Assembly: GCA_020051175.1 (NCBI GenBank)
Contig: JAGVJJ010000052.1
Coordinates: forward strand, 1-54,375
DNA from: Bacteroidia bacterium
GTDB lineage: Bacteria > Bacteroidota > Bacteroidia > 2-12-FULL-35-15
Direction of reading: 5' to 3'
Length of the DNA: 54,375 bases
This document shows, piece by piece, positions 1 through 20,026 of the stretch. The first letter of the stretch is position 1, and each line of letters begins with the position of its first letter. The position numbers were made by a program, and so were the translations under genes. The notes under the pieces are model-generated. The model saw only the letters and a program-made list of their open reading frames with translations. It was not told the origin of the DNA and searched no databases.

Positions 1-327
1 ACCTGTACTGCCAGTACTTCCGGTACTTCCATTAATACCCACACCAGCTGCTATTGCCTGCCAATAAGTTCCATTGAAGTAATAAAATTTGTTATTGGTC
101 GTAAGATAGATCAATAGCCCTGTTACCGGGGAAGTTACCGATGCCGTATCTGCAATACGAGGAGCTAAAAATCCTTTATCGTTTGATGTAAGATCTAGCA
201 GCGCGCTGGAGGCCGGATTGATTGTACCAATACCAACATTGTTTTGGGCATTGAGATCAAAACATAACCGAAAAAAAATAACTGCCAAAAATATAAGACG
301 ACAATACGCAAAATAACTGTTTTTCAT
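1..327 (-). CDS. Collagen-like fibre protein, N-terminal part only (cut by window start)
   Basis: This is the first 109 codons of a gene whose rest lies left of the window. It opens with ATG at 327-325 and a hydrophobic signal peptide ending near 'LNAQ'. The same head domain as in the next four genes follows ([50 protein letters not shown]). The last visible residues already enter Gly-X-Thr repeats ([10 protein letters not shown]). It sits 82 bases downstream of the S74-tipped gene on the same strand, so it is probably the distal member of the fibre gene run, although a TAnnTTTG box at 355-362 could give it its own start. I infer an exported collagen-like stalk protein. The length and tip type cannot be known from this window. 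Confidence 0.85.
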   Translation of the reverse strand, partial: MKNSYFAYCRLIFLAVIFFRLCFDLNAQNNVGIGTINPASSALLDLTSNDKGFLAPRIADTASVTSPVTGLLIYLTTNNKFYYFNGTYWQAIAAGVGINGSTGSTGSTG

Positions 328-354
328 AGTACAAAAATGTTAATCAAACCAATA

Positions 355-362
355 CAAAAATA
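355..362 (-). promoter_or_regulatory. Bacteroidota -7-like element (TATTTTTG)
   Basis: On the minus strand TATTTTTG matches the TAnnTTTG box exactly, 27 bases upstream of the ATG at 327. I see no well-spaced -33 TTTG, so this is a weak call. Confidence 0.3.
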
Positions 363-409
363 CAATATCAATTATACAAGATCGGTTAAAATATCAAAAA
401 ACTGAGACT

Positions 410-7633
<7,224 letters not shown>

Positions 7634-7682
7634 TTAAGAAAACCGGCCATATAAAATTGGGGATGGTTCTCTCAAAATCAAG

Positions 7683-7715
7683 TAAAGATACATGATTTAC
7701 ACCATATAAAGCAAT
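7683..7715 (-). promoter_or_regulatory. Putative promoter of the fibre gene run
   Basis: Read on the minus strand: ATTG, 21-base spacer, TATCTTTA. This is close to the Bacteroidota TTTG-N19-21-TAnnTTTG consensus (last base of the -7 box off). It lies about 70 bases upstream of the start at 7615. Confidence 0.4.
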
Positions 7716-7820
7716 TTTTAAGAGATGAACTTTTGTTCTTGGGCCATAAAATGGTTTAGCAGCCCATTCTGGGATTAATAAACCCTATTTAGAAATAATA
7801 ATTTGTCAACACCAAGTCTT

Positions 7821-11522
<3,702 letters not shown>

Positions 11523-11701
11523 GTTCTGAACTGCTTCAAAATTTACAATTAACCAACCAAACACCAGCCCCCGATGACATTCCCAGTATATATATAAATA
11601 CAACAAAACAATTGGCATTGATACAACTCTACTATAAATGACAACACCGTTTTATTAAGAACGCCAAATTGTAAATGTCACAGAATAACTGGGAATATAA
11701 G

Positions 11702-11738
11702 AAAAACCTCCATCAGCTGTTTTTAGCAGCCAATGGAG
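11702..11738 (-). terminator. Rho-independent terminator after the 11766-13892 gene
   Basis: On the minus strand a CTCCAT/ATGGAG stem extended by GCTG/CAGC around an A-rich loop is followed by GTTTTTCTT. It lies 28 bases past the stop of the stalk-only fibre gene and separates that unit from the next gene. Confidence 0.75.
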
Positions 11739-11765
11739 CGCCCTAAAGCATTTTAAGTTCTCCTT

Positions 11766-13892
<2,127 letters not shown>

Positions 13893-13937
13893 CGGTCAGT
13901 TTTTTTGTAATTGTTTCTTTTTGTTGGTTAGGTTCTA

Positions 13938-15839
13938 TTATTTATTAATATCATTTAAAATTTTAAATTCAGTTCTACGATTAATTTCTCGCCCTTCTTC
14001 TGTTTCATTTGAAAACAGTGGGTCTGCTTCCCCATATCCTTTTGCAACGAGTTGCTGTGTATTTACACCGGCAGAAATCAGGTAATCCACAACAGATTGG
14101 GCACGGGCTTGGGAAAGTTGCAGATTGTATTGTTCTGAACCATCACTATCGGTGTAACTGGCAACTTCAATCCGCAGGTTCTGATTCGCTTTCATTAGGG
14201 CAACAAGACGCAATAACTCTGTTTTGGACTCAGGACGCAATGTTGCTTTTCCAAGGTCATAAAAAATGTTTTTGGCATTAATTTTATTACCAACATTCAG
14301 CTTTTGAAGCGGAACGTGTTTGTCAATTTTTTTAAATGCCGCAGACTCCGGAATATTAAAGTTTTCGGAATAGAAAAGGTAACCATCCTTTTTAACGGCT
14401 ATACCATAGTTTTTACCAGCAGGCAGGGAAATCAGAAACTTTCCGGTAACACTGTTGGATTTAATACTGGTAATAACCTCATTGCTGTCGTTATCAATGA
14501 TTTCCATATCAGCAGCCAACGGCTCAAAAGTTTCGTAATCAATCACAACACCTTTAAATAAAGTAAGTTTAGAGGCGCTTTCGCTTTTCTGATTTTCCGG
14601 ATATTTAAATGTTATTTTATAAATATCTTTTTTTCCACTTCCACCATCGCGACCGGAAGAATAATAACCAGTACTTCCATCAGCAGTAATTACAAAGAAC
14701 AAGTCATCACCAACCGTATTGATAGGAGCTCCTAGGTTAACTGGCTTACTCCATTTTCCTTTTTCGAAAACGGTTTTATATACATCAAATCCGCCAACTG
14801 AATTATGCCCTTTTGAACTGAAGTAGAGCGTTTTGCCATCAGGATGTATATAAACACCTTCCTCATCTCTTTTCGTATTTACATCCGGACCCATATTTTT
14901 GGCTTCCCCCCAGTTTCCACGCTTGTCCTGCTTGCAATACCAGATGTCAAGACCACCTTGTCCATGCTTACGGTCGCTGACAAAATAAATGGTTTTACCA
15001 TCAGGAGAAATACTAGCCGATGTTTCATGACGGGAAGAATTTATTGGCTGAGGCAATACCAGAGGTATTGACCAGTCTTCACCTTTTAAAGACGATGCAT
15101 AAATATTACCATCTGGTTCACCTTTATACAATAAAAGGTTTTGTCCGTCATTAGAAAGTGCAATAGCCGAATTATTTCTTTTTGGCTGATTTACGGAAGG
15201 CCCCAAAAGCTTTGCAGGGCTCCATACATCAAGCGAATCATTATAATAAGAAACGAATACATTTTCCATCCTTTCTGCCCTCTTTGAACTGTCTTTTGCA
15301 CCAATAGGGCGTTTTGAAGTGAATATCATCATTGCCCCATCGGCAGAAATAATAGGGGCAAATTCAGAATATGGAGTATTTATTGCCTCACCCATGTTTT
15401 TTACAGTAATAATTACTGAGTCTGTTTTTACAGAAGTGTCAGTCGTTTTTAAACCAAGTATATTCGGTGCAATTGTTGTTTCTGTTTTTTTAGGTTGCAC
15501 CTCCGTTTTAGCTGAATCAGTTTTAACAACGGGAGTTTCAGCATTGTTTTTTGCTGAATCTGTTTTTACAAGCGGAGTAACTCCAGGACTTGTTTTTGCA
15601 GAATCTGTTTTCACAACCGGAGTAACTCCAGGACTTGTTTTTGCAGAATCGGTTTTTACAGCAGCAGAATTTCCTTGATTATTTGCACCATCGGTTTTTG
15701 CAGAGTCAGTAAAAACTGGAGTTTGTATATTTTCCAAAACAGGTGTTTTATTTGTAGTGGAATCAGAAACCTGGCTAAAGGACTGCAATTTACCAATCAC
15801 TATTAATCCCAGCAGGAATACAAGCTTTTTCATAAGCAA
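13938..15839 (-). CDS. PD40 beta-propeller / OmpA-family outer-membrane protein (PorE-like)
   Basis: 633 residues. Signal peptide (MKKLVFLLGLIVIG; the Met at codon 3, position 15833, is an alternative start), then a low-complexity linker with VKTDSAK repeats (about 58-115). PD40 propeller blades follow at about 170-400 (ISPDGKTIYFVSDR, IHPDGKTLYFSSKG, ITADGSTGYYSSGRDG), then a carboxypeptidase-regulatory-like domain (about 426-503). A C-terminal OmpA domain (about 523-630) has NIFYDLGKATLRPES, the peptidoglycan-binding LSQARAQSVVDYL and NRRTEF. The T9SS protein PorE has the same PD40-regulatory-OmpA order with an extra TPR domain, which I do not see here. It follows the PorP/SprF gene by 63 bases, a pairing typical of T9SS accessory modules. 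Likely role: anchoring an outer-membrane complex to peptidoglycan. Confidence 0.85.
   Translation of the reverse strand: MLMKKLVFLLGLIVIGKLQSFSQVSDSTTNKTPVLENIQTPVFTDSAKTDGANNQGNSAAVKTDSAKTSPGVTPVVKTDSAKTSPGVTPLVKTDSAKNNAETPVVKTDSAKTEVQPKKTETTIAPNILGLKTTDTSVKTDSVIITVKNMGEAINTPYSEFAPIISADGAMMIFTSKRPIGAKDSSKRAERMENVFVSYYNDSLDVWSPAKLLGPSVNQPKRNNSAIALSNDGQNLLLYKGEPDGNIYASSLKGEDWSIPLVLPQPINSSRHETSASISPDGKTIYFVSDRKHGQGGLDIWYCKQDKRGNWGEAKNMGPDVNTKRDEEGVYIHPDGKTLYFSSKGHNSVGGFDVYKTVFEKGKWSKPVNLGAPINTVGDDLFFVITADGSTGYYSSGRDGGSGKKDIYKITFKYPENQKSESASKLTLFKGVVIDYETFEPLAADMEIIDNDSNEVITSIKSNSVTGKFLISLPAGKNYGIAVKKDGYLFYSENFNIPESAAFKKIDKHVPLQKLNVGNKINAKNIFYDLGKATLRPESKTELLRLVALMKANQNLRIEVASYTDSDGSEQYNLQLSQARAQSVVDYLISAGVNTQQLVAKGYGEADPLFSNETEEGREINRRTEFKILNDINK
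15505..15670 (-). repeat. 45-bp imperfect coding tandem repeat (VKTDSAK linker)
   Basis: Four imperfect units of about 15 residues built on VKTDSAKTSPGVTP encode the flexible linker after the signal peptide of the OmpA-family gene. The middle two are nearly identical in DNA, which suggests recent duplication. Confidence 0.75.
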
Positions 15840-15902
15840 TAGAATATTTTTAATAATAAAAGTTTAAAACAAGTTTTGTTGACTGGACACATTGCCTTAA
15901 TC

Positions 15903-16973
15903 TTAATCTTCATCATCCAACAAACGTGGAGCGGAATGAAACGGATTCGGGTTAACATATTTCAAAGAAATCTCAATTCCCCCTTTACCTCTTGTAGCAG
16001 CGGTTAAGCCCGATACGTTAACATCATAACTGAGCCCGAAAGAGTAATTGGAATGCTCGAGAAGCACCATAGGAGCAATGGCATCTTTAAGACGGTAATG
16101 AGCCCCAAAGGAAACTGCAGTTCCTTTATATACCCCTGTATACTTTGATTTTTCTTTTATGGTCATTCTTATCATTGTACCTACATTTAACTGAGAAGAA
16201 GGCCCCTGAATAAAGTAGGCCATACTTGGTACAATTGCAAGGTCGGACTGAGGTACACCAATAAGCGCATTTCCGTGAACCACAAACTTAGCGTATAGCT
16301 GATCGTTAGTAATATCCGTATAATTTTGCTTTGGGGTATTTACATTTTGTGCAGAAAACCCAAAATTGGCTCTCAGCTGATCATTCGCACCCAATGATGA
16401 TGCTTCTGAAGCATATCCCCAGGCTAACCCCAATGAAAAATCACCATATCTGGTTGGAGGCAATGCAGAAACATCATTGGAAAGAATATTAGGATCGAAA
16501 CCGCCAATGCTCGGATTGTACTGACTTTCCCATTGCATAGCAGCAACAGAAACACTTTTTTGAACATAACCACCCTGTAAACCGCCTGATAATGTATTAT
16601 TTGCATTGATGTGAACAACACCTGCCAATGAAAGGTTAATTTGGGTTGTTCCCATTTTTAAATCTCCCGCGACATCTTTAAATCCGGTAATACCAACACC
16701 AACATGAGCCCTTTCCCATCTTTTTTTCATAAAAGCCCCATCCACAGAGAAGAATGCCGTGTTGAACGCTGCACCATTAGCAGAAAGGCCCCTCCACTGA
16801 TTTTTATAATTCAGGAATGCTCTCTGGTCACCCTCTGTACCTGTGAGTGCAGGGTTTAGAACCAGCGGGATCATTGTTGTTTGAGTAAAGTGGATGTCCT
16901 GTGCAAAAGAAGAACGAATGTTCATCAGTACGGCACTCAGGATTATGGTTGCGAGTAAAATTTTTCTTCTCAT
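15903..16973 (-). CDS. Type IX secretion system membrane protein, PorP/SprF family
   Basis: 356 residues. A signal peptide (MRRKILLATIILSAVLMN, ending near 'SFAQ') leads into the family hallmark DIHFTQTTMIPLVLNPALTG and FLNYKNQWRGL. The rest alternates short beta strands typical of an outer-membrane barrel (FSVDGAFMKKRWERAHVGVG, LEHSNYSFGLSYDVN), and length is normal for the family. SprF-like proteins are needed for secretion of partner substrates carrying a type B C-terminal signal, and they are usually encoded next to that substrate. Here the type B protein lies 52 bases upstream. I infer a dedicated pair, with the PD40-OmpA protein as third component. Which fibre proteins, if any, use this channel is not shown, because none of them carries a recognisable T9SS signal. 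Confidence 0.9.
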   Translation of the reverse strand: MRRKILLATIILSAVLMNIRSSFAQDIHFTQTTMIPLVLNPALTGTEGDQRAFLNYKNQWRGLSANGAAFNTAFFSVDGAFMKKRWERAHVGVGITGFKDVAGDLKMGTTQINLSLAGVVHINANNTLSGGLQGGYVQKSVSVAAMQWESQYNPSIGGFDPNILSNDVSALPPTRYGDFSLGLAWGYASEASSLGANDQLRANFGFSAQNVNTPKQNYTDITNDQLYAKFVVHGNALIGVPQSDLAIVPSMAYFIQGPSSQLNVGTMIRMTIKEKSKYTGVYKGTAVSFGAHYRLKDAIAPMVLLEHSNYSFGLSYDVNVSGLTAATRGKGGIEISLKYVNPNPFHSAPRLLDDED

Positions 16974-17025
16974 TGTTCTGTATCAGTGGGTTGAACTTGA
17001 ATTCCTGTATTAAATTCTTAATATT

Positions 17026-18252
17026 TTATCTAAGCAATGTAACGTTTCCGCTTCTGTCAAACTCTTCTCCGTTCTTAAACTTGCCTTTTGCGAAATAAAC
17101 AAAAACACCTACGTTCATTGGTTTCCCTTTAAAGGAGCCATCCCAGCCTACAGTAGCATCAGTGGTTTCAAACACTTTGCCTCCCCAACGGTCATAGATT
17201 GTAAATGTAAGTTCATCTATTGAATTGCCTAAAAGGTGAAGTACATCATTATTACCATCACCGTTTGGAGAGAAAACGTTCGCCACAAATACTGCAGGCA
17301 TTTCTTCAGCAAGTATAAACGGAGCGTGAGAGAAGTCCGTATGACCATATTTGGTAATACCTACAAGGTTGTTGCCTGTAGTTTCAGCAACTACACCAAT
17401 ATTTTTCCACATGTTATCCCATTGCGCAAGCAGCTGGTAATTTCCATCTTCAACCGGATCATAATAAACAGTAACATCAGCAGCGTCAGAAGAATTGGTA
17501 CTGCTTATCCTGTGATAAAAATTAGGATTTGCATCACCAATTGTAACCTCCCTGTTACCGCGATCATAGCTTTCAGTAGTTGCATCAACATTTGCCATCC
17601 TTACTTTAAACGTATTGTCGGTTGCCGGTGTAATTTCAACCGGGCGGTAACGTGAAGTACCTACGTTTGAACCCACAGGGAACAGATATACTTCAGATGC
17701 TGTTGTATTCCTGGAAAGGCCACCATCATTGGTACTGCTTACAAAACCGCTGCTACGCGTAACAACTCCTGTACCTGGGGATAACACAAATACCGTATTG
17801 TCGCCTGCTTCGAAGTCTTTAGTATTTAATGCAAGGGTGTCCTCAATCTCAACATCAATGCTATCCAGTTTGCGTGCTCCAACACCAATCAACTCAAGGT
17901 TATTAAAACGGGTAATAGTGGTTCCACCTATATTTTGTGAAGCCTGAATTGCTGAATCCAGGTGCACCCATCCATTTGTACCACTGGAAAACACAGCATT
18001 TGTAGGATTTTCATTCGTCCAGTTACCCCTGATATAAAAATTACCGGAATTCACTATCTGGCCTTCCTGCTGGTGTGTTACATCCCCATTGATAACAAAC
18101 TGGTTGTTGCTATTAAAAATGGTTATACCGTTATTCAGAAAGCTGACCTGGGAAGTAACATCCAGGGCACACACTCCAACCAGAATAGCAGCAATAAGTA
18201 CTGCTTTAGGTGAATGTTTACGTACGTTTAGGTTCTTGTAAATATTATTCAT
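17026..18252 (-). CDS. Secreted protein with T9SS type B (gliding-associated) C-terminal domain
   Basis: I take the ATG at 18252 (MNNIYKNLNVRKHSPKAVLI), which places the charged segment directly before the hydrophobic signal core; an upstream in-frame ATG at 18279 is possible. The product is 408 residues. The C-terminal 85 residues are the CHU_C/type B sorting domain: NVFSPNGDGNNDVLHL, FTIYDRWGGKVFETTD, GWDGSFKGKPMNVGVFVYF. The middle is beta-rich and unrecognised (NNGITIFNSNNQFVINGDVT). It precedes the PorP/SprF gene by 52 bases and probably leads the operon that runs to 11766. Likely exported by T9SS and attached to the surface or part of the secretion or fibre apparatus. Confidence 0.88.
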   Translation of the reverse strand: MNNIYKNLNVRKHSPKAVLIAAILVGVCALDVTSQVSFLNNGITIFNSNNQFVINGDVTHQQEGQIVNSGNFYIRGNWTNENPTNAVFSSGTNGWVHLDSAIQASQNIGGTTITRFNNLELIGVGARKLDSIDVEIEDTLALNTKDFEAGDNTVFVLSPGTGVVTRSSGFVSSTNDGGLSRNTTASEVYLFPVGSNVGTSRYRPVEITPATDNTFKVRMANVDATTESYDRGNREVTIGDANPNFYHRISSTNSSDAADVTVYYDPVEDGNYQLLAQWDNMWKNIGVVAETTGNNLVGITKYGHTDFSHAPFILAEEMPAVFVANVFSPNGDGNNDVLHLLGNSIDELTFTIYDRWGGKVFETTDATVGWDGSFKGKPMNVGVFVYFAKGKFKNGEEFDRSGNVTLLR

Positions 18253-18339
18253 ATATCTTAATATTTTGAATATGTCCAAAATAAATAACCGTTGTTGAGA
18301 TTTGATTTATTTGTAGACAGTTAAAAATAGTTGGTCTAG

Positions 18340-18347
18340 CAAATATA
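18340..18347 (-). promoter_or_regulatory. Bacteroidota -7 element (TATATTTG) ahead of the T9SS unit
   Basis: TATATTTG on the minus strand matches TAnnTTTG exactly, 88 bases upstream of the ATG at 18252. No clear -33 TTTG at the right spacing. The region 18253-18537 has no gene. Confidence 0.35.
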
Positions 18348-18537
18348 CAAATTCGTGATAAAATAAAGAAAAATAAATTCTAGCCACAAGTTTTTTTTTC
18401 AAACACAGCAACTTCCTGACAATCAACACATTGATGCAAAATCATGAAACTATCTGCACTTTTTTGTCGATAACTAGTAGCAATATGCCAGGTTTTACAT
18501 GCAATTTGTGGATAAAAAACAAAATTTTAATCCGATT

Positions 18538-19404
18538 TTAATCCCCTTCGGTCAAATTGCTTTTCAGGTAATCCATTATCAAAATTGCTTCCCTGGCCTG
18601 TCTTACATCATGAACACGCAGTATTCCTGCTCCCTTTTGAAGCGCAATAGTATTCAGAACAGTTGTGCCGTTCAATGCATCAGCAGCTTTTATGTTTAAC
18701 AATTTGTTAACCATAGACTTGCGGGAAAAGCCAACAAGGATTGGTAGCTGAAGGACATGAAAGTCATCAAGGGTTTGTAATAAGCGGTAATTATGTTCCA
18801 GCAGTTTTCCGAACCCGAAACCCGGATCAATAATTATTCTTGTTATGCCTAATTTATTTAATTCCGCCTTTTTTAGGGTAAAAAAGGCAAGTACTTCTTT
18901 GGTTACATCCGCATATTGCGGCTGTATTTGCATGGTTTGAGGTGTGCCCTGGATGTGCATGAGCACATAAGGAACATTCAGCTTTGCAATGGTTGTAAAC
19001 ATAGATTCGTCCATTGTTCCTCCCGAAATATCATTGATTAAATGCGCTCCGGCACTAACCGCCAACTCTGCCACACCAGCCCGGAAAGTATCGGCCGAAA
19101 TGACGACACGCGGAAAGTTCTTTTTTACAGATTCTACAACCTTTATAAGCCGCTCAGCCTCCTCTTCAGCAGAAATGTGTTCTGCACCGGGACGCGTAGA
19201 ATATGCGCCTATATCAATAATATCAGCACCTTCATCTATCATTTCGCCAGCTCTCTCCAACCATAAGCCTTCTGAAGTATATTGGCCCCCGTCATAGAAA
19301 GAATCGGGGGTTACATTTAAGATGCCCATCACCAAAGGCGAAGCACCAGGTGTGAATATCTGTTTTATTATATTTTCGCAAAAAACTGTATCTTGCAGCG
19401 TCAT
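18538..19404 (-). CDS. folP: Dihydropteroate synthase
   Basis: 288 residues, normal for the family. It condenses 6-hydroxymethyl-dihydropterin diphosphate with p-aminobenzoate in folate synthesis, in the cytoplasm. All the signature segments of the TIM-barrel enzyme are visible in order: LVMGILNVTPDSFYDGG (pterin/pABA loop 1), DIIDIGAYSTRPGA (loop 2), HLINDISGG, YVLMHIQGTPQTMQ, IIIDPGFGFGK, LPILVGFSRKSM, and ILRVHDVRQARE. It is transcribed divergently from the DUF1599 gene with only 49 bases between, an arrangement I recall as common in Bacteroidota. No obvious truncation or resistance-type insertion. Confidence 0.97.
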   Translation of the reverse strand: MTLQDTVFCENIIKQIFTPGASPLVMGILNVTPDSFYDGGQYTSEGLWLERAGEMIDEGADIIDIGAYSTRPGAEHISAEEEAERLIKVVESVKKNFPRVVISADTFRAGVAELAVSAGAHLINDISGGTMDESMFTTIAKLNVPYVLMHIQGTPQTMQIQPQYADVTKEVLAFFTLKKAELNKLGITRIIIDPGFGFGKLLEHNYRLLQTLDDFHVLQLPILVGFSRKSMVNKLLNIKAADALNGTTVLNTIALQKGAGILRVHDVRQAREAILIMDYLKSNLTEGD

Positions 19405-19453
19405 TTTTTAAATCAAAGGTTTTTAAAGATTTTAAGAATACTAAAACCAGCAC

Positions 19454-20026
19454 ATGAGTTCAACAGACATTCTATCCGTAACCAAAAATATGAATAAAAC
19501 CGCTACTCAATACGATACGGCCATTGCAATGTGCAAAGACATCTTTATTAAAAAGATGAAAGACTATGGTACAGCATGGCGCATCCTGCGCACCAGCTCC
19601 ATTACAGACCAGATTTTTATAAAAGCCCAGCGGATAAGAAATATAGAAGAGAAGGGTACTCAAAAAATCAGCGAAGATGTAAAATCGGAATACATAGGCA
19701 TTATAAACTATTCCATTATCGGGCTTATACAGCTGGCATTAAAAAATGATCCCCGTATGGAACTGCCTGCCGATGAAGTAAGTAAATTATATTCTAATTA
19801 TGCAAATGAGGCAAGGAATTTGATGGAGAACAAAAATCATGATTATGGCGAAGCATGGCGTGATATGCGCGTAAGTTCACTCACCGACCTGATCCTGATG
19901 AAACTATTGAGAATAAAACAAATTGAAGACAACAAAGGTGAAACCATCATTTCTGAAGGTATTGATGCCAACTTTCACGATATGATCAATTATTCTGTAT
20001 TTGCATTGATTAAATTGAACCAGTAA
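19454..20026 (+). CDS. DUF1599 protein (nucleotide-modification-associated domain, duplicated)
   Basis: 190 residues consisting of two copies of the same roughly 80-residue domain. Copy one carries MKDYGTAWRILRTSSITDQIFIKAQRI and copy two NHDYGEAWRDMRVSSLTDLILMKLLRI (quoted loosely by their conserved DYG-AWR and SS-TD cores). The predicted all-helical fold fits DUF1599, which is grouped with nucleotide-modification-associated proteins; a precise reaction is not known to me. No signal peptide. It opens the plus-strand run and is divergent from folP. The BT_3928-type gene follows after 31 bases, so the two are probably co-transcribed. The family call is good; the cellular role is unknown. Confidence 0.85.
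   Translation: MSSTDILSVTKNMNKTATQYDTAIAMCKDIFIKKMKDYGTAWRILRTSSITDQIFIKAQRIRNIEEKGTQKISEDVKSEYIGIINYSIIGLIQLALKNDPRMELPADEVSKLYSNYANEARNLMENKNHDYGEAWRDMRVSSLTDLILMKLLRIKQIEDNKGETIISEGIDANFHDMINYSVFALIKLNQ

Follow-up and report, generated by a model that had tools for sequence, protein, structure and literature searches.

What, if anything, joins a set of collagen-stalked fibre proteins to the type IX secretion system (T9SS) genes beside which they are encoded? The question is raised by contig JAGVJJ010000052.1 of Bacteroidia bacterium (Bacteroidota; 2-12-FULL-35-15; assembly GCA_020051175.1), of which positions 1–54,375 were analysed as a single stretch, referred to here as the window; its base 1 is base 1 of the contig (C35). 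Within the first 18.3 kb, eight minus-strand genes, called mechanically as the longest open frames, encode a T9SS type B sorting-domain protein, a PorP/SprF protein, a PD40-OmpA protein, and five fibre proteins (A to E) with a common N-terminal head of about 80 residues; four of the fibre genes are complete and the fifth is truncated at the contig end. An initial annotation had described five same-strand genes with a shared head and a Gly-X-Thr stalk, running without strand change into the secretion genes, and this description holds, with the fifth gene a contig-end fragment and gaps of 52 (type B/PorP), 63 (PorP/PD40-OmpA), and 45 bases (PD40-OmpA/fibre D). Genome comparison ties the head recurrently and specifically, beyond the window and in other genera, to an unnamed domain of the type B protein, designated tbN (residues 40–325; 17305–18162, minus strand). 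Proteins bearing tbN are probably anchors displayed by the T9SS, to which the fibres, exported independently, would attach through the N-terminal head, presenting variable tips at the C terminus.

A 286-residue probe from the N-terminal part of the type B protein, representing tbN, finds a match in 26 of the 36 genomes of the family, all of which belong to one genus. Of the ten other loci that reach 50% identity or more and extend far enough for their order to be read, eight carry type B, PorP, PD40-OmpA, and head genes on one strand and in that order (L059–L062 and L064–L067, with the PorP reading frame split in L062); L063 ends too early for its order to be judged. The same order recurs in the more distant L074, and L069 has a head gene just upstream. 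When the search is confined to three genes on either side and to the same strand, 15/35 same-genus tbN loci have a head gene, L062 failing this limit through its split PorP despite sharing the gene order.

The initial annotation had treated PorP/SprF as the linked partner and had proposed that the head should be sought next to PorP/SprF in other Bacteroidota, where its complete absence would count as a refutation; such co-occurrence is indeed found, though it is tbN that carries the link. In seven genomes of the genus that serve as their own control, 8/13 PorP loci with tbN have a same-strand head gene no more than 6 kb away, versus 1/125 PorP loci lacking tbN (Fisher p 4e-9 if the loci are treated as independent). 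Gene places for this comparison were compiled by hand from genome scans. They comprise 138 of 144 PorP rows (five that scored under the cut-off of the family were dropped, as was a fragment of 59 positions), 108 of 134 head rows (24 repeat matches within an open frame already counted and two contig-end fragments were dropped; at least two such repeat matches remain among the 108), and all 25 tbN places. One PorP place (G025 C6 19286) was counted as near tbN though it belongs to a neighbouring operon, which weighs against the result. Type A tbN proteins without an adjoining PorP still have head neighbours, and these, together with the single case in 125, rule out PorP/SprF as the link. Since head proximity tracks tbN and not PorP, PorP/SprF is best regarded as a bystander and tbN as the partner.

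Across the class, tbN is found at E 1e-15 in 162/395 genomes and 76/196 genera, with at most six candidates scored per genome. From the matches listed, 40 loci outside the genus (34 genomes, several sharing genera) were taken in a non-random manner, strongest first with some from further down, and in 20 of them a same-strand head gene stands at most three genes away, more often upstream. Head genes make up 22/209 of the genes within three positions of tbN in these loci, versus 0/167 at five or more positions. In the genus and non-genus sets together, every head gene (46/46) is on the tbN strand. The spacing between adjoining head and tbN genes (n = 25) is −20 to 185 bases in 23 cases, and 288 and 822 bases in the other two; in ten loci, the window included, a head gene follows the PD40-OmpA gene by 32–199 bases. 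When 85 tbN domains are placed on a roughly built tree, the presence of a head neighbour changes at least 20 times, a number inflated by the scoring of loci cut by contig ends as having no neighbour (duplicates L094, L095, L097, and L104 were omitted from the tree and retained in the domain-position counts); gene order varies too, which makes a single frozen inheritance unlikely. The type B sorting domain is likewise ruled out as the link, as a head gene occurs at 0/74 type B loci without tbN (the head content of those genomes overall was not checked). A scan of named genomes gave 80 loci with a head gene only at L094, which lies on the contig of L064 in a genome already in the set, and at L103. 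Two arrangements stand apart: in L084 (5495–14814), three head genes alternate with two tbN genes, beginning and ending with a head gene, and the stretch covered has no PorP, and a 1677-residue open frame in L072 holds two tandem tbN matches.

Sorting signals are divided between the two sets of proteins. Sorting domains of the T9SS, whether type A or type B, match 0/54 complete head proteins at E 0.001; they are present in 36/40 tbN proteins whose head neighbour is at most four genes away, as type B in 29 and as type A in 7. The scans cover 54 of 55 complete head proteins, L016 having been dropped as a spurious-looking short frame; head genes truncated at the end of a contig or stretch were excluded, and the C termini of the longest ones (L059, L064–L066, and L074) thus lie outside these figures. 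In the same 54 proteins, collagen repeats are found in 34, an S74 chaperone domain in 10, and a tail collar domain in one. The collagen-like nature claimed for these proteins at the outset therefore stands for the window fibres and is an optional trait of head proteins at large, others having bodies that lack collagen. The head begins within the first 70 residues in 69/70 proteins and tbN within the first 110 in 78/83, the latter proteins sometimes also bearing PKD, Ig-like, or SprB repeats. With tbN at the protein end opposite the sorting domain, the order from the cell outwards may be outer membrane, sorting domain, spacer, tbN, head, stalk, body, and tip. Among 120 listed of 253 tbN relatives, a domain listing without positions gives PF13585 or PF18962, repeat domains, PF04862 in four, and nothing in a few. 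The tbN domain itself has no Pfam match in the local copy, and the profile of the type B family gives a single PDB match, at E 0.84.

In the window fibres, the head directly follows the signal peptide (signal peptides were assessed by eye) and is 51%–88% identical over 77–79 residues, while the C-terminal 150 residues of the four complete fibres share 20%–36% identity. The head has no family in the local Pfam copy, and the PDB gives nothing for it below E 0.3; all 15 head relatives listed bear PF26696.1, which is a very recent addition to Pfam. Across the genome, the head is matched 34 times, in 27 open frames spread over 13 contigs, and collagen at least 138 times (150 candidates being scored out of 249). 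The stalks match PF01391 in the four complete genes at E 5e-64 to 3e-25, and are marked by very little proline and few charges (0 to 4 lysines and arginines per run measured). Fibre C (7821–11618; 1265 residues) has its head at 11205–11447, a Gly-X-Thr stalk at about residues 120–440, a beta-helix-like body, and a C-terminal tip. Fibre B (3851–7615; 1254 residues; head at 7298–7537) is built alike, with a stalk at about residues 88–363, a body, and a tip. Fibre A (410–3838; 1142 residues; head at 3512–3754; stalk at about residues 91–327) continues through its body into an S74 intramolecular chaperone (PF13884; 668–847; SDxxxK motif at residue 998) and a coiled-coil-like end. Fibre E (1–327) is the contig-end fragment, with a signal peptide, a head, and a stalk that has barely begun.

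Fibre D (11766–13892; 708 residues; PF01391 at E 5e-64) had been annotated as a stalk-only gene; it proves to bear a signal peptide, a head (13593–13820), and a C-terminal end of about 46 residues besides its long stalk. This short end recurs at about 36%–47% identity on other head-collagen proteins (L024 6309–7661, L061 12982–15189, and L069 10603–11751) and may thus be a small cap domain. Its stalk contains, at 12015–12572, 15.5 copies of a 36-base unit (12 residues) at 84%, which points to recent expansion. Several contigs of this genome end in, or at the start of, Gly-X-Thr repeats at window base 1, at the ends of L012 and L014, and at the starts of L015, L021, and L023; the fibre genes are therefore under-assembled, and the true clusters are probably longer.

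The bodies of fibres A, B, and C are related in sequence to the mosaic adhesive trimeric (MAT) fibres with which the predator Bdellovibrio grips its prey. Searched without their collagen parts, the body of fibre C matches only 8ond, 8ojn, 8ol4, 8oml, and 8on4 in the PDB (up to E 0.1; best E 1.8e-11, to 8ond), and that of fibre B only 8ond and 8ojn (up to E 0.1; best E 3.5e-10, to 8ond). Fibre A was searched whole and matches 8ond (E 8.5e-9) and 8ojn (8.3e-6) along with many collagens, the phage fibre 6f45 (1.5e-4), MyRF 7dc3 (7.8e-4), and 1wck. A MAT-like body is absent from fibre D. In MAT fibres, a conserved N-terminal domain that follows the signal peptide is thought to sit at the cell surface, and the C-terminal tips are variable (PMC10769870). 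For that reason, the shared head of the window fibres is more likely the base of the fibre, and the C termini its tips. The proposal of a fibre system tied to T9SS genes with interchangeable ends is well supported by the genome comparison, with the difference that the tips are to be sought at the C termini and the common head at the likely base.

Three genes supply the T9SS side of the locus, all on the minus strand. The type B gene (17026–18279; likely start the ATG at 18252, the end coordinate of the initial annotation) encodes 417 residues, and its sorting domain (residues 332–416; 17032–17286) scores 54.8 bits with PF13585 (cut-off 27) and 47.9 bits with TIGR04131 (cut-off 35). Downstream lies the PorP/SprF outer-membrane shuttle (15903–16973), with 132.9 bits for PF11751 (cut-off 22.3) and 175.5 bits for TIGR03519. 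It is one of 18 PorP/SprF genes above cut-off in the genome, where the T9SS core gene SprA, which was searched for, is also found (TIGR04189, 2630 bits). The PD40-OmpA protein (13938–15839) matches both a beta-propeller (PF07676) and an OmpA-like wall-binding family (PF00691). Its best NCBIfam matches, CHU_0125_OmpA and T9SS_PorE, each fall below their own cut-offs (T9SS_PorE 271.9 bits, cut-off 600), its signal-peptide region has no lipobox cysteine, and no TPR match is found in it. Judged by these scores, the protein is PorE-like and is not PorE.

From these parts a plausible mechanism of anchor docking can be drawn. The T9SS would export the 417-residue type B protein and hand it over to its cognate PorP/SprF, which would retain it at the outer membrane with its tbN domain facing outwards; PorP itself would be fastened to the cell wall by the PD40-OmpA protein. 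The five collagen-stalked relatives of MAT fibres, which have a signal peptide and no T9SS signal, would leave the cell separately and dock onto tbN by their heads, such that several fibres with different C-terminal tips could share one kind of anchor. The contact between head and tbN, the trimerisation of the fibres, their display on the surface, their use as adhesins, and their exit from the cell are what we infer here.

Several findings weigh against docking. Half of the tbN loci lack a head gene. In the genus, a group with tbN and PorP but no head gene comprises L070, L071, L073, and L075–L077; L026, L071, L073, and L075–L077 carry tbN and, unless truncated, PorP and PD40 genes, again with no head gene. 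The triad in L068 has no fibre gene, and in L021 a head gene directly follows the type B gene without PorP. Among tbN proteins without a head neighbour, 34/41 match our own-built type B profile; a T9SS domain is thus not special to the head-linked ones. Head-like modules also occur inside some fibres (as at 9288–9545), and the head may thus be a mere fibre module. Divergence of head and tbN is correlated (Mantel r 0.33 over 41 pairs, with 5/5000 permutations as high; 0.48 within the genus and 0.54 outside it, with 0/5000 permutations each); the correlation is uninformative, because linked genes inherited together share a history. In the seven genomes, 89/108 head places have no tbN within 6 kb on their own strand and 76 have none within 20 kb, a distribution that fits shared anchors and equally the absence of any contact. 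A shared neighbourhood, finally, could mean shared regulation alone.

The distant head places and the head-less loci favour a view in which the fibres and the T9SS triad are separate systems, co-regulated or gathered in surface-protein islands with no physical contact. We consider it somewhat unlikely, since the neighbour is specific to tbN and is not shared by other T9SS cargo, as the counts at type B and PorP loci without tbN show, and since strand agreement is complete and spacing operon-like. The division of sorting signals admits a further reading, namely that the tbN protein is an export helper too and that the fibre, having no T9SS signal, rides the translocon bound to tbN cargo. Nothing in the sequences points to another evident route; a triple-helical fibre of such length would, however, be a hard passenger, and co-export of a signal-less partner through the T9SS is not known to have been described. 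Bdellovibrio, which is not known to have a T9SS, displays MAT fibres on its surface all the same, and export help of this kind is in our estimation quite improbable. A stricter form of the docking proposal would make tbN and the head a dedicated docking pair, with a general-purpose T9SS socket of type B or type A signal for MAT-type trimers that lack any outer-membrane export signal themselves, and with fibres that exit only together with the socket protein; we put it forward tentatively, as an unlikely case. If true, it would provide a first candidate surface element for MAT-type fibres and a new use of the T9SS, the export of a partner in trans. Descent of the fibre genes from phage or tailocin tail fibres is suggested by the S74 and tail collar domains in the head proteins, and by many PHROG tail-fibre matches, mostly via collagen and S74 parts. 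It is nevertheless highly improbable: the proteins start with what by eye resembles a Sec signal peptide, and the 27 head-bearing frames are spread over 13 contigs. A search of 50,697 phage records with one head, that of fibre C, gave no match at E 1e-3, and a phage origin of the head was set aside.

Both halves of the system are known in kind, as MAT-type fibres and as the T9SS type B complex. Like the Bdellovibrio MAT proteins, the window fibres have a signal peptide, a conserved N-terminal domain, a beta-helical body, and a variable tip or S74 domain, and the 27 head-bearing frames of this genome compare with 21 MATs in B. bacteriovorus (PMC10769870). They differ in the Gly-X-Thr collagen stalk between the N-terminal domain and the body, the word collagen being absent from the available text of that paper, and in an N-terminal domain of about 80 residues rather than about 130, likened to that of MATs by position and not by sequence. 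They further differ in being linked to a partner sorted by the T9SS; for MAT fibres, the same paper states the element holding them on the surface to be unidentified. On the T9SS side, a PorE-PorP-PG1035 surface complex of Porphyromonas gingivalis has been proposed to be anchored to the wall (PMC9143113), and Flavobacterium johnsoniae has five PorE-like/type B/SprF-like operons (PMC12618676). The window resembles these in holding type B, PorP/SprF, and PD40-OmpA genes in one run, and departs from them in its PD40-OmpA protein, which lacks the lipobox cysteine and falls under the PorE cut-off. No fibre partner appears in the accessible portions of either source, and neither fibre nor fiber is a word in that of PMC12618676.

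A Gly-X-Y collagen-like stalk on a non-collagen domain is shared with BclA of Bacillus spores and Scl of streptococci, and the third stalk position of BclA is rich in threonine, as it is in the window stalks. Models of Scl and SclB are not reached (72–211 bits versus cut-offs of 325–400); unlike Scl, the window fibres show no sortase signal by eye, and the adjoining anchor genes are of the T9SS. The collagen-repeat proteins of Cardinium were considered as a precedent and rejected, as the available texts mention collagen repeats and no T9SS link, and the T9SS is not predicted in the genomes of the Cardinium paper. In the literature searched, mostly outside subscription journals, none was found that joins MAT-type collagen-stalked fibres with a T9SS-sorted domain. 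Neither a collagen stalk on a MAT-type body nor the recurring link to such a domain was met with in that literature.

Further features accompany the locus. A terminator after fibre D had been proposed, and a hairpin with a 12-pair stem and a T-run, the longest stem listed, does lie immediately 3′ of the gene (11738–11708); over 1–19500, such hairpins are not above chance (14 found versus 17.2 expected in shuffles). The Bacteroidota −33/−7 promoter pattern occurs four times in the window versus 4.35 expected, with none in the locus, and sigma-70-like sites are not enriched (36 found versus 42.5 expected). A plus-strand frame at 11905–13461 and others antisense to the stalks are rich in proline and valine and look like by-products of the repeats, not genes. 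The N-terminal linker of the PD40-OmpA protein holds a 15-residue repeat in 3.5 copies (15505–15660). Elsewhere in the same genome, very long collagen genes with no head in the scan (L015 1–6784 and L023 1–4966) lie beside similar-looking small secreted proteins and form, by eye, a different collagen-like set. Two other collagen-like frames (L013 4967–5836 and L020 2–5206) have C termini that resemble, by eye, T9SS type A signals, unlike the head fibres.

The pairing of head and tbN offers a concrete anchor candidate for such fibres in Bacteroidota, and points to a function that one group of type B proteins may have. It also raises the question by what route long fibres that lack a T9SS signal leave the cell, and its presence in many genera of the class makes the way in which such fibres are held on the cell a testable matter.

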